From: Ignavibacteriota bacterium
GTDB lineage: Bacteria > Bacteroidota > Ignavibacteria > Tepidaquicellales > Tepidaquicellaceae
NCBI GenBank assembly: GCA_020437545.1
Contig: JAGQWH010000018.1
Coordinates: 1 to 34,842, forward strand
DNA length: 34,842 nt
Direction of reading: 5' to 3'
Part shown: piece after piece, positions 1,966 to 34,842 of the stretch
Layout of the letters: each line of letters opens with the position of its first letter
How positions within the stretch are numbered: the first letter of the stretch is position 1
The notes under the pieces: model-generated
Databases searched by the model: none
Seen by the model: only the letters and a program-made list of their open reading frames with translations
What the model was told of the DNA's origin: nothing
Translations under genes and position numbers: made by a program

Positions 1966-4023
1966 TTAATTAATTTGTCTTTTTAATAACCGGGCATTTA
2001 CTGCAACTATAATTGTACTCAGACTCATGAATACAGCGCCAACAGCAGGTCCCAATACAAATCCCGATGAATATAAAACTCCCGCTGCAAGCGGAATTGC
2101 AATTACATTATATCCAGTAGCCCATGCAATATTCTGGATCATTTTATTGTATGTAGCTTTACCGAATAAGATCAGACTTGCTATGTCTTTTGGATTACTG
2201 TTGACGAGGACTATATCAGCCGTTTCAACGGCTACGTCTGTTCCGGATCCAACTGCTATTCCAACATCAGCCTGTGCTAAAGCAGGAGCATCGTTTACTC
2301 CGTCTCCGGTCATCGCAACAAACTCACCTTTGCACTGAAGCTCTTTTACAATCTCAACTTTCTGATGTGGTAAAACTTCTGAATAGTATCCGTCAAGTCC
2401 GAGTTCGTCCGATACTGCTTTTGCAACGGTCTCATTATCGCCTGTTGCCATCATTACTTTGATCCCGTTTTTCCTGAATATTCTAATCGCATCATTACTT
2501 TCAGGTCTGATGGTATCAGCTAAAGAAATATACCCCGCAACTTTCCCATCAATTATTACAAACACAACTGTCTCAGCTTTACTTGAAAAAGATCCTTCAG
2601 GAAAAGTCAGATCATTCTCCTTCAGATAACCCGGACTTACCACTTTTACGGATTTCCCTTCCACTATTGCTTCTACGCCTTTTCCGGTGATAGCATTAAA
2701 ATTCTCAGCATCCGGAATTTTCAGATCAAGATCTTTAACTTTATCGATTATACCAACTGCAATGGGATGCTCGGATGACTGTTCGAGTGCGCTCGCCAGT
2801 CTGAGCATCTCTTCTGCTGAAATTCCGGAGACACTTTCAAAACGGGTAACACCAAATATACCTGTTGTAAGTGTTCCGGTTTTATCAAACAATAAAACAG
2901 TTATCTTCCGGGATTCTTCAAACGCAGTTCTGTTGCGGATAAGAAGTCCGTGCTGTGCAGATACGGAAATAGAAATAGCGACAACTAAAGGTATTGCCAG
3001 TCCAAGCGCATGAGGACAGGTTATTACCATTACAGTTACCATTCTTTCTAATGCAAATACAAACGGATATCCTGCGATCAGCCAGACAGCCAGTGTTCCG
3101 AATCCAATTGTCAATGCAATATAAGTCAGCCATTTAGCAGCGCGGTCTGAAAGATTCTGCATTCTGGATTTTGTCTTCTGTGCTTCTGCAACAAGGGTTA
3201 TAACTTTATTCAGATAACTGTCTTTACCTGTATGTTCCACTTTCATCTTAAGAGAGCCGTTACCATTGATCGAACCGCCTATGACTTTACTGTCTTTATC
3301 TTTTTTAACCGGCTTGGATTCTCCGGTCAGCATGGATTCATTTACATAACTGCTGCCTTCTGTGATTATTCCGTCTGCCGGAACTTTCTCTCCAGGTTTG
3401 ATAAGTATGGTGTCATTTATTTTCAACATGTCAAGTTTGACATCTTCAACATTTCCATATTCATCTACTCTGTGCGCTTCAGCCGGCATCATGCTGACCA
3501 GTAATTGTAATGCCTTTGACGCGCCCAGTACTGACTTCATTTCGATCCAGTGTCCTAGTAACATTATGTCTATAAGTGTCGCGAGTTCCCAGAAAAAATC
3601 AACTCCCTTTAGTCCAAACACAGTTGCAGTACTGTAAAAATATGCTACTGATATAGCCATCGCGATCAGTGTCATCATACCCGGATTCTTAGATCTCACT
3701 TCTTCATAAAATCCTTTTAAGAACGGTAAACCGCCCCAGAAGTAAACGATCGAAGAGAGTACAAAAAGAATATATGGATTGCCCGGCAGCAGCCATTCAT
3801 ACCCGAAGAACATCTGTATCATGGGAGAGAAGATCAAAATGGGAATGGTAAGTATTAGTGTAACCCAAAACCGTTTCTTGAAATCCTCAATCATCATCTG
3901 ATGATGATCATGTCCTTCCATTCCCATAGGGATGTTTTCATGACCCATTTTTGAATGATCCATTTTACTGTGATCTATTTTTGAGTGATCCATTTTACTG
4001 TGATCCATTTTTGAATGATCCAT
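1966..4023 (-). CDS. copB: CopB-type P1B copper-exporting ATPase with His-rich MDHSK repeats
   Basis: A 685-residue metal P-type ATPase. In order: a His/Met-rich cytoplasmic tail (residues 1-44) with five MDHSK/IDHSK repeats and GHDHHQM; transmembrane helices; the actuator motif TGES (233-236); the metal-site motif CPH (336-338) in TM6; the phosphorylated Asp in DKTGT (380-384); then GDGVNDAP; and two last helices with MSLSTIIVA. CPH rather than CPC, plus a His-rich tail in place of an HMA domain, defines the CopB (P1B-3) class known for Cu(I)/Cu(II)/Ag export. Length is normal and no lesion is seen. It follows the DUF3347 lipoprotein gene (47 bp gap) and precedes HMA-MauE. A truncated relative lies at 9304-9671. 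Confidence 0.96.
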   Translation of the reverse strand: MDHSKMDHSKMDHSKIDHSKMDHSKMGHENIPMGMEGHDHHQMMIEDFKKRFWVTLILTIPILIFSPMIQMFFGYEWLLPGNPYILFVLSSIVYFWGGLPFLKGFYEEVRSKNPGMMTLIAMAISVAYFYSTATVFGLKGVDFFWELATLIDIMLLGHWIEMKSVLGASKALQLLVSMMPAEAHRVDEYGNVEDVKLDMLKINDTILIKPGEKVPADGIITEGSSYVNESMLTGESKPVKKDKDSKVIGGSINGNGSLKMKVEHTGKDSYLNKVITLVAEAQKTKSRMQNLSDRAAKWLTYIALTIGFGTLAVWLIAGYPFVFALERMVTVMVITCPHALGLAIPLVVAISISVSAQHGLLIRNRTAFEESRKITVLLFDKTGTLTTGIFGVTRFESVSGISAEEMLRLASALEQSSEHPIAVGIIDKVKDLDLKIPDAENFNAITGKGVEAIVEGKSVKVVSPGYLKENDLTFPEGSFSSKAETVVFVIIDGKVAGYISLADTIRPESNDAIRIFRKNGIKVMMATGDNETVAKAVSDELGLDGYYSEVLPHQKVEIVKELQCKGEFVAMTGDGVNDAPALAQADVGIAVGSGTDVAVETADIVLVNSNPKDIASLILFGKATYNKMIQNIAWATGYNVIAIPLAAGVLYSSGFVLGPAVGAVFMSLSTIIVAVNARLLKRQIN
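3949..4023 (-). repeat. Tandem coding repeat, five MDHSK units
   Basis: The first 75 coding bases of the CopB-type ATPase are five 15-bp units. Ser codons alternate between TCA and AGT, so the true DNA period is 30 bp, about 2.5 copies. Such an array could gain or lose His/Met units by slippage. Confidence 0.85.
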
Positions 4024-32421: not shown

Positions 32422-33420
32422 TTATTTCAGAATAAACAATAATATCATAAGACCTGCATAAAGCAGTAATATTATAAAAGCGTCAGCAGCAAGAAGAAAT
32501 CTCTTTCGCTCTGCCTTGAACAACAATCCGATCGCAGCGACTGCAGTCATTATTATTACAAACAATATTGAGATCAGATTCTCAGGATGAATCGCAGCGA
32601 AAAGAGAGCCTCCCCTGTAAAACAGATCATCTATTCCAAGTATAAAAATATTGAAAATGTTACTGCCGAATAAATTTCCTACCGCCATATCCACAGAGCC
32701 AATTCTAATCGCTGAAATGCATACAACTAACTCCGGAAGAGATGTTGATATTGCAAGAAATAAAGTCCCGAAGAATGTATTTCCCATTCCCGATTGCGTG
32801 GCAAGAATATTTCCGAAGTAAGGCAGAAACAGTGCAGCAGCTACAACTATAAACGCATTAAAAGCATAACGCATAAGGGTTTTCTGAAGTGCAGCAGAAT
32901 CTGTTTTTACTAATTCTTTTTCCTTTGCCTTTTGATCATTTCTGTTTTCAAATTTGAAAATTAACCAGATAGATAATAAATAAACTATAAATATAACCGG
33001 TGTCATTAAACTGATCCATCCGATAACAGGTGTTTCTGCAGACAAAAGGATTGCAAGCCCGCTGAGTGTAATTAGAATTATTCCGCATGCACCGGCAAAT
33101 ACATGTGTACTTCTTACTAAAGAAGTAATAGGTTTTTTTAAAAGTACATCAAGTATGGATAAAATAAAAAGATTAAAAACACAACTGCCGAATATATCAC
33201 CTGCAGCAAGATCAGGGGCATTTACGATTGCTACTGAACTTATACCCGTGATCAGTTCGGGAAGTGATGTAATAGATGCCATCATTATCAGCCCGATCCA
33301 TGCCTTGCCTAAACCCGTTTGCTCCGCAATCCGATCACCATAAAAAGAAAGTTTTATACCTGCATAAACAATCGCTGCTGAACAAAATATAAATCCTGAT
33401 ATAGATTCTAAAACTTCCAA
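32422..33420 (-). CDS. CaCA-family Ca2+/cation antiporter (YrbG-like), TTG start
   Basis: A 332-residue protein with about ten helices and two inverted alpha-repeats. Repeat 1 has GLIMMASITSLPELITGIS and GDIFGSCVFNLFIL; repeat 2 has FLAISTSLPELVVCI and VGNLFGSNIFNIFIL. These are the ion-binding motifs of the family. The start is TTG at 33420, giving MEVLESISGFIF with TM1 complete; the next in-frame Met is about residue 46, too late. An in-frame stop lies just upstream, inside the heptamer array. Expected role: Ca2+ (or Na+/Ca2+) exchange beside the P2-type ATPase. Confidence 0.88.
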   Translation of the reverse strand: MEVLESISGFIFCSAAIVYAGIKLSFYGDRIAEQTGLGKAWIGLIMMASITSLPELITGISSVAIVNAPDLAAGDIFGSCVFNLFILSILDVLLKKPITSLVRSTHVFAGACGIILITLSGLAILLSAETPVIGWISLMTPVIFIVYLLSIWLIFKFENRNDQKAKEKELVKTDSAALQKTLMRYAFNAFIVVAAALFLPYFGNILATQSGMGNTFFGTLFLAISTSLPELVVCISAIRIGSVDMAVGNLFGSNIFNIFILGIDDLFYRGGSLFAAIHPENLISILFVIIMTAVAAIGLLFKAERKRFLLAADAFIILLLYAGLMILLFILK

Positions 33421-33423
33421 TGG

Positions 33424-33462
33424 TATTAAGTATTAAGTATTAAGTATTAAGTATTAAGTATT
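33424..33462. repeat. Heptanucleotide array (TATTAAG)5.6 upstream of the CaCA antiporter
   Basis: Five perfect copies plus four bases of TATTAAG, with no interruption, begin 3 bp upstream of the TTG start at 33420. A 7-bp unit is not a multiple of three, so copy-number changes would alter spacing or frame. Stops occur within each unit on the minus strand. Confidence 0.95.
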
Positions 33463-33554
33463 GATCCGTCTTGGCAGATTGAGAATTGAGTAAATCGTTT
33501 TTTTTTAGAAGTTCATTGAACAAAATAACTCATCAATATTCTTTTGCCAAAAGA

Positions 33555-34787
33555 TCAGGAAAGCCTCTTTGCAAGTTTCCCGATGGTTAATCCCTGCACC
33601 AGAATGGTAAAGCACACTACAACGTATGTAATAGTGACCAGCAATTGCCGGTTATATTCGGGAAGTATTGAAAGTGCAAGAGCAATTGATATACCGCCTC
33701 TCAATCCGCCCCACGTAATTATGATAAGAGTTTTCTGAGAGATCTTCTCTTTATATCTGATAAGCAATGAGGGAACCCAGACTGAAATATATCTAGCAAA
33801 CAGACATACAAATATTGCCATTACGGAAATCAAAAAAACTTTAAATTCAAAATCTATTAAAAGTAACTGAAGTCCCATTAATACAAAAAGTATGGTGTTC
33901 AGGATCTCATCTATCAGTTCCCAGAATTTATCCACATACTCAACAGACATTTTTGACATTCCTAATTTCTTGCTTTTATTACCTGTAATTATCCCGGCTG
34001 TTACCATTGCAAGAGGTCCCGAAACATTTGTAAGATCGGCAATTGTATATCCGCCCATCACAATTGCAAGTGTGATCATTACTACAATCTTATAATTTTC
34101 TATATTTTTTATTAATCTGTACCCTACAAATCCGAGTATAATGCCTAATAAAATTCCGCCAAAAGCCTCCTGACCAAACAACTTGAGTATCGTCATAGCA
34201 TCTATCTCCGTTCCGGGCTTTGACATTTTTAAAAAAGCTAGAAAAGTTACGACTGCTACACCATCATTAAAGAGTGACTCTCCTGCAATTTTTGTTTCAA
34301 GGGATTTTGATACCCCGGCACTTTTAAGTATACTCATTACTGCAATAGGATCTGTAGGTGAGATCAATGCACCGAAAAGAAATCCATGAAGTATGTTTAT
34401 ATTTATGCCGAACATTAAAAGAACATAGTATGATAAAAATCCTATCACTAGAGTACTGATAATTACACTTAGAGAGGAAAACAGGAGTATACTTAGTTTT
34501 TCACTTTTAAGATCTTCAAATCTTACATGTATAGCTCCGGCAAAAAGCATAAAGCTCAGCATTCCTTCAAGCAAAAGCTCACTGAAATTCAAAGTCAGTA
34601 ATTCTTTGTTTAATAAATATTCCAGACCCGGAAAGATCTGCCCCAGAAGAATAACTATTCCTGAAAATACAAGTGAAACGATCATAAGTCCTATCGTTAC
34701 CGGAAATTTCAGTAATCGGAAATTTATAATTGCAAACCCCGCGGAGATGACTACAAGAATTGATATTATGTGAAATACACCAAGCAA
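33555..34787 (-). CDS. CPA1-family Na+/H+ antiporter (NhaP-like), TTG start
   Basis: A 410-residue protein with about twelve helices. FGALISPTDPIAVMSIL and ETKIAGESLFNDGVAVVTFL are the ion-binding signature regions of CPA1 antiporters (the ND motif after GES). LWR-type and SGGLRG-like segments (ITWGGLRGGISIALAL) occur near the C-terminus. The start is TTG at 34787; it gives a complete first helix (IISILVVISAGFAIINF). The next Met is near residue 35. An in-frame TAA from the heptamer array lies 4 codons upstream. Role: Na+(K+)/H+ exchange and pH homeostasis. No soluble C-terminal domain is present. Confidence 0.9.
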   Translation of the reverse strand: MLGVFHIISILVVISAGFAIINFRLLKFPVTIGLMIVSLVFSGIVILLGQIFPGLEYLLNKELLTLNFSELLLEGMLSFMLFAGAIHVRFEDLKSEKLSILLFSSLSVIISTLVIGFLSYYVLLMFGININILHGFLFGALISPTDPIAVMSILKSAGVSKSLETKIAGESLFNDGVAVVTFLAFLKMSKPGTEIDAMTILKLFGQEAFGGILLGIILGFVGYRLIKNIENYKIVVMITLAIVMGGYTIADLTNVSGPLAMVTAGIITGNKSKKLGMSKMSVEYVDKFWELIDEILNTILFVLMGLQLLLIDFEFKVFLISVMAIFVCLFARYISVWVPSLLIRYKEKISQKTLIIITWGGLRGGISIALALSILPEYNRQLLVTITYVVVCFTILVQGLTIGKLAKRLS

Positions 34788-34796
34788 ATGAATCAG

Positions 34797-34842
34797 TTAA
34801 TAGTTAATAGTTAATAGTTAATAGTTAATAGTTAATAGTTAA
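34797..34842. repeat. Heptanucleotide array (TTAATAG)6.6, runs to window end
   Basis: Six perfect units plus four bases of TTAATAG, continuing at least to the window edge, so the copy number is a minimum. It begins 9 bp upstream of the TTG start of the CPA1 antiporter. The unit is related in composition to, but not the same as, TATTAAG at 33424-33462. Confidence 0.95.

Follow-up and report, generated by a model that had tools for sequence, protein, structure and literature searches.

A heptamer array at the start of a CaCA antiporter gene belongs to a dispersed intergenic repeat family with gene-edge polarity in an Ignavibacteria genus

The tandem heptamer array that lies directly before the start codon of a CaCA antiporter gene in this Ignavibacteriota genome is a member of a dispersed, intergenic family of heptanucleotide simple sequence repeats (SSRs; LSSR/STRR type), which it matches in abundance, period, location and variability. 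Arrays of this family occur throughout the genome, turn over in unit and copy number between species at orthologous slots, are in excess at gene edges, and are almost always oriented there such that G without C is found on the strand running out of the gene, and the start of the CaCA gene has not been displaced. We consider it probable that these arrays represent a slippage-driven family placed under a polarity rule at gene edges, giving a G-free, unstructured leader, and that the CaCA gene has no private switch.

Within the window, i.e. the whole stretch of 34,842 nucleotides that was analyzed, the features around the array are as follows.

32422..33420, minus strand: CaCA / Na_Ca_ex antiporter gene, 332 aa, TTG start at 33420-33418 (ORF and Pfam)
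33423..33462, minus strand: heptamer array (GTATTAA)5.7 (TRF: period 7, 5.7 copies, 100% match)
33463..33554, minus strand: remaining intergenic leader, from the Na+/H+ antiporter stop to the array, with a decayed GC-rich palindrome ATCCGTCTTGGCAGAT (sequence, leader fold)
33555..34787, minus strand: Na_H_Exchanger antiporter gene, TTG start, next upstream gene on the same strand (ORF and Pfam; TTG kept in congener loci L029 and L087)
34795..34842, minus strand: second heptamer array (AGTTAAT)6.9, cut off by the end of the contig (TRF; 7 nt before the Na_H_Exchanger TTG)

The array at 33423-33462 is upstream of the CaCA gene, which is read from the minus strand. The protein matches Pfam PF01699 (Na_Ca_ex) in two stretches (2.4e-27, 96.2 bits, cut-off 24.9), and genes for a P-type cation ATPase and a methyltransferase (Pfam) follow downstream on the same strand. 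An earlier note on this DNA had described the array, and TRF confirms it as perfect, with 5.7 copies at period 7; its placement in lieu of a ribosome-binding site and leader also stands, the gap to the TTG being 2 nt from the TRF edge and 3 nt in the TATTAAG phase. The unit reads GTATTAA on the plus strand and CTTAATA in the CaCA mRNA leader, and because the array mRNA (CUUAAUA) has no G, it harbors neither a start codon nor a Shine-Dalgarno (SD) motif. The array is unpaired in predicted leader folds, and one slippage step would alter the length of the CaCA leader by 7 nt.

The same note had raised the possibility of a native start displaced by array expansion, which is contradicted by three observations: both congeners (L029, L087) share the TTG and the codons that follow it, the window protein has 51 residues before SLPE, against 49-56 in 12 of 13 homologous loci and 65 in the other, and the array contains in-frame TAA codons, the last of them 15 nt before the TTG. 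The CaCA start is neither displaced nor located within the array, translation reading through the array is ruled out by the in-frame TAA, and frame switching by a change of copy number is excluded because the array is outside the reading frame. A TTG start is unremarkable in this host, given its use in 132 of 548 mechanically called ORFs of at least 150 aa (own-genome sample). SD use appears weak in general, with SD-like 4-mers before 13.6% of 390 array-free ATG-start ORFs (4.1% after shuffling) and before none of nine ORFs with arrays. A sigma-70 scan of 33300-34842 returned four matches, below the shuffle mean of 6.7, and none that was promoter-like had the array between its hexamers, as judged by a sigma-70 consensus that may not suit this phylum. 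Of the 15 array-led starts in the own-genome sample that have an AATAC, seven show a gap of exactly 3 nt between the last AATAC and the start codon (AATACCATATG, AATACCAAATG, AATACTAAATG etc.), a partly fixed register that may hint at function or at the copying of whole leaders.

Other repeats were also noted. The GC-rich palindrome TCCGCCGCGGCGGA, with its variants, is a second dispersed element, with 34 copies in an 840-kb sample of the genome, some of them beside arrays (e.g. L236:6505-6544), and a decayed copy at window positions 33464-33480. A 15-bp repeat ATGATCCATTTTTGA (window 3940-4023, 5.6 copies, 75% match) occupies the start-codon end of the minus-strand ORF 1966-4023. No RNA element was matched when the window was scanned with Rfam at the gathering threshold.

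The host genome comprises 4.29 Mb in 429 contigs, and (TATTAAG)3 has 85 matches in it, counting overlaps and including the window's own three, compared with none for the reversed control; for (TTAATAG)3 there are 40 matches against 17 for a reversed control that is a poor one, being itself a possible family member. For a broader view we used an own-genome sample chosen by contig number and thus not selected for arrays (840,103 bp, with 829,646 determined bases and 10,457 N; about one fifth of the genome), which does include the window itself and some contigs already known to bear an array; locus L229 was dropped as a duplicate of the window. ORF calling was mechanical (greedy, minimum of 100 aa, longest-ORF starts), so that small genes were missed. 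Perfect arrays of at least three copies at period 7 numbered 72 in this unselected sample, compared with 0 in one Markov-1 shuffle, which extrapolates to approximately 370 per genome. Every other period within 4-15 yielded at most 19 arrays (19, 2, 3, 13, 16, 0, 0, 0, 1 and 10 at periods 4, 5, 6, 8, 9, 10, 11, 12, 13 and 14, respectively); period 4 reached 28 in the shuffle, and alternating heptamer units may account for the arrays at period 14. The 13 period-8 and 16 period-9 arrays also exceed the shuffle (0 each). Contigs end in or beside heptamer arrays in the window (34795-34842), in contigs C2, C3, C6, C145 and C266 of G000, and in C16, C17, C21 and C25 of G002; short-read assembly was therefore probably broken by the arrays, and long arrays are probably under-counted.

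The family is intergenic (66 of 67 blocks in the unselected sample), and its units are many yet similar (GTATTAA, GTATTGA, GTATTAG, GTATTGG, GTATTGT, AGTTAAT, AGTTAGT, AGTTGAT, AAGTTAA, GATTTTT, GATTTGG and others), most of them having G without C on one strand. Ten array-led proteins, chosen from 21, were scanned; the matches include an M20 peptidase, a phosphoglucomutase, a sulfotransferase, MoaC/MoCF, threonyl-tRNA synthetase and three guanylate-cyclase-domain proteins with TPRs, and one protein had no match. In a row of four genes at L218:3065-15359, all about 1000 codons long, each has a heptamer array of a different unit at most 10 nt upstream, and the first and last of these, the two that were scanned, encode guanylate-cyclase-domain TPR proteins.

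At the edges of genes these arrays are strongly polar. For blocks of the unselected sample no more than 30 bp from the nearest ORF edge, the strand running out of the gene was G-type in 34 cases, C-type in one and mixed in two, with a split of 24:1 at stops and of 10:0 plus the two mixed blocks at starts. The corresponding near-edge ratios were 27:4 in an array-selected sample and 7:0:1 in congener genomes G001 and G002 together. Beyond 30 bp the polarity fades, to 7:10 at 31-100 bp and 6:3 plus three mixed at more than 100 bp. A comparison that does not preselect the edge led to the same pattern: among pure arrays with two flanks, the nearer ORF was on the 5' side of the G strand in 46 of 54 (unselected sample), in 40 of 57 (array-selected sample) and in 6 of 8 (congeners), with p values of 1.4e-7, 0.003 and 0.29, which are optimistic because arrays in one block are not independent. 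These counts leave out mixed G+C arrays (9 and 9) and arrays with only one flank (9 and 13). Median distances to the ORF on the 5' and 3' sides of the G strand were 17.5 and 134 bp in the unselected sample, with 29 versus 1 arrays within 20 bp, and 31 and 105 bp in the array-selected one. In regions holding both types, a G-array was followed by a C-array in 16 of 17, both between convergent genes and in the two tandem arrangements, when arrays with mixed or no G/C are left out.

Several trivial sources of this polarity were considered. Outward base skew, computed with arrays masked, is too small to account for near-absolute array polarity (+0.07 at stops and +0.18 at starts in the own genome, +0.045 at each in other family members, and +0.02 and +0.29 in G002). 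An artefact of ORF calling, by which stops within arrays create the ORF ends, was rejected since C-type arrays are not swallowed by ORFs, pure arrays inside ORFs numbering 0 in the unselected and two in the array-selected sample, and since starts obey the rule as well. Removal of one orientation alone was likewise rejected: arrays in the allowed orientation reach 2.16 per kb at the edge, a value to be halved for a fair comparison as arrays from −15 to +15 fall into the edge bin, where only 15 bp are available, against 0.40 and 0.37 deeper in intergenic DNA. This excess indicates that more than purging of the wrong orientation seems to be needed. Imperfect extra units lay on the gene side versus the outer side in 26 versus 7 cases (unselected), 22 versus 20 (array-selected) and 2 versus 4 (congeners), and overwriting toward the gene is not supported by their position.

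The family is largely confined to one genus. Among named records, the protein closest to that of the CaCA gene (92% identical) is encoded at L029, from an uncultured Ignavibacteria bacterium (G002:C139), and the next within Ignavibacteria at L087 (G001:C152; 74% in the best segment). The pattern (GTATTRR)3GTATT is present in 10 of 294 genomes of the class, with 470, 492 and 284 matches in all three genomes of the genus and 1-14 matches in 7 of the 291 others. Two of the latter, G172 and G224, distant genomes from another family of the class, carry GTATTAG arrays (14 and 6 pattern matches), which reflect either independent origin or transfer. Across 109 loci around CaCA relatives (601,054 bp), arrays were found in five loci of the genus and in one outside it (L037), and the small congener samples gave 12 arrays in 53,953 bp (G001) and 7 in 152,839 bp (G002). 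Orthologous slots differ between species in unit and copy number: the slot before the Na+/H+ antiporter gene has (AACTATT)6.9 here, (AACTTTT)3.4 in G002 and (AACTTTT)8.3 in G001. An inspection of orthologues, which the earlier note had suggested, revealed the same at the CaCA leader, with TTAATAC units here, TTTTAAG-like and degenerate units in G002, and two copies of CAATAC type in G001. Arrays at L236:1663-1891 have no counterpart in the corresponding slot of G002 (L240). The CaCA orthologue of G001 (L087, C152:6554-7517) is itself split over several frames with stops, and is either a pseudogene or affected by sequencing errors.

What the array does for the CaCA gene, and what orients the family, could be explained in several ways. 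The earlier note suggested a phase-variable contingency locus, in which slippage alters leader length or promoter spacing and thereby toggles a Ca2+ antiporter. Its description of the leader position was sound, the array does differ in length and unit among species, and an array that abuts the start and varies between congeners is what such a switch would display; a displaced start and a switch special to the Ca2+ antiporter were not borne out. Similar arrays stand genome-wide beside unrelated genes, including that of threonyl-tRNA synthetase, where the array ends 3 nt before the TTG. A tRNA synthetase is generally essential, so an off-switch before its gene is hard to credit. With frame switching excluded and no sigma-70-like match spanning the array (the consensus may not suit the phylum), a dedicated phase switch at the CaCA gene is not supported, and we regard it as very unlikely. 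Selection for regulatory leaders, in which a shared S1-like or Csp-like RNA-binding protein recognizes a G-free repeat, as proposed for the TAACTGA repeats of Beggiatoaceae, would account for the G-free mRNA strand near starts, for the many arrays that end a few nt from starts in a partly fixed register, and for array-led genes lacking SD-like sites. However, rule-obeying arrays are more frequent at stops than at starts (24 versus 10, unselected sample), the wide variation of units would be intolerable to a sequence-specific binder, and some slots are array-less in a sister species, as at L236 and L240. Leader selection would explain starts and not stops, and seems to us unlikely.

Two further explanations concern the polarity. 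Intergenic breaks could be healed by telomere-like addition of G-bearing heptamers to 3' ends, which, once joined, would leave a G-array followed by a C-array; this order is indeed the rule in regions with both types, the paired arrays are usually of different unit, and imperfect units in the unselected sample lie more on the gene side (26 versus 7), as outward growth predicts. Nevertheless, the array-selected sample shows no growth-direction signal and the small congener sample shows the opposite one, arrays begin at gene edges and not at random break points, and neither a reverse transcriptase (RVT_1) nor Ku was found in this 97%-complete genome, all of which makes such healing decidedly improbable. 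Placement through quadruplexes, as suggested for the GGGAATC repeats of Xanthomonas and Nostoc, is brought to mind by a shared polarity and by similar distances to the ORFs (averages of 28 and 160 nt for xanthomonads in excerpts of PMC4692102, compared with our medians of 17.5 and 134), and GGG runs occur in 5 of the 34 near-edge G-outward arrays. In 25 of these 34, however, there are no adjacent Gs at all and the rule is still obeyed, which excludes quadruplexes as a general cause of the polarity and renders this explanation extremely improbable.

The slippage-driven family that we favor would operate as follows. Strand slippage, a standard generator of tandem arrays, would create and re-lengthen intergenic heptamer arrays, which would thereby change unit and copy number between species, and the observed turnover is consistent with this. 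The genome has three matches to MutS-family genes, so that a loss of mismatch repair does not suggest itself as the cause. A placement rule would set the 5' end of the G-bearing strand against the gene edge, such that the outgoing strand has G and lacks C; at a start codon the result would be a G-free, unstructured mRNA leader that a host rarely using SD sites could translate, presumably without harm. The CaCA array would occupy the same type of slot as hundreds of others, and we conclude that it is probably a tolerated family member with at most a modest effect on the gene. Candidate causes of the polarity are directional growth or spread of arrays that stops on reaching a gene, or counter-selection of the opposite orientation; spread toward genes halted by coding sequence fits in part, agreeing with the edge excess and not with the position of imperfect units. 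Counting against the favored explanation, the array-selected sample is less strict and polarity is absent away from edges.

Heptamer arrays as such are known from other bacteria. According to the account of Mrazek 2007 in excerpts of PMC4679880, heptanucleotides are the most abundant of the long prokaryotic SSRs, a 7-nt excess shared by our genome, and slippage at the DNA polymerase was proposed; unlike here, no polarity appears in that account. SSR contingency loci such as the uspA1/uspA2 leaders of Moraxella likewise have a tandem repeat before the start codon, there between promoter and start, but are single loci with a demonstrated change in expression (PMC4679880, introduction), in contrast to a genome-wide family known from sequence. 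The TAACTGA direct repeats before starts in marine Beggiatoaceae, which excerpts of MacGregor 2015 (PMC4679880) also report from some cyanobacteria and Bacteroidetes, along with heptamer assemblages in a few Bacteroidetes, share with our arrays the rarity of canonical SD sites and the diversity of genes. They differ in having one favored unit with both C and G, mostly at starts, as opposed to many units and more stops than starts, and no TAACTGA array occurs among our listed units of at least three perfect copies. A tandem array at a start in such genomes is not by itself evidence of phase variation, which should be borne in mind during annotation.

The closest precedent, in excerpts of Rehm et al. 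2015 (PMC4692102), is the GGGAATC and GGGGA(C/T)T heptamers of Xanthomonas and Nostoc, to which no role could be assigned. Like ours, they are intergenic, dispersed, variable in copy number and tied to no functional class, with a G strand that is antisense before starts and sense after stops, an ORF that is closer on its 5' side, and convergent pairs; the same polarity governs our arrays at starts and stops alike (34:1:2 within 30 bp; 46 of 54 arrays). Ours differ in being AT-rich, with mostly isolated Gs and many unit families per genome, and in belonging to Ignavibacteria; the CaCA unit GTATTAA is not of the GGGNATC/GGGGAYT type with quadruplex potential, nor are the 25 of 34 near-edge arrays that lack GG. 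Excerpts of a 2025 short tandem repeat survey (PMC12699852) describe no heptamer polarity, and the open-licence PMC literature yielded no paper on heptamer arrays in Ignavibacteria. The bacterial heptamer excess is an old and unexplained observation, and the Xanthomonas/Nostoc polarity was discussed in terms of quadruplexes; AT-rich, mostly GG-free units under the same polarity separate the two and make the cause testable: an explanation has to do without quadruplexes and hold for both starts and stops, regardless of the direction of transcription. It is conceivable, though we would offer it only as a tentative and rather doubtful generalization, that outward-G polarity at gene borders is a general rule for heptamer arrays in bacteria, independent of quadruplexes and seen in at least three phyla, and that it arises from directional DNA synthesis that grows or spreads arrays one way and stops at coding sequence. 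Taken together, these comparisons place the arrays in a known kind, of which the AT-rich, mostly quadruplex-incapable, multi-unit form in this Ignavibacteria genus is new.
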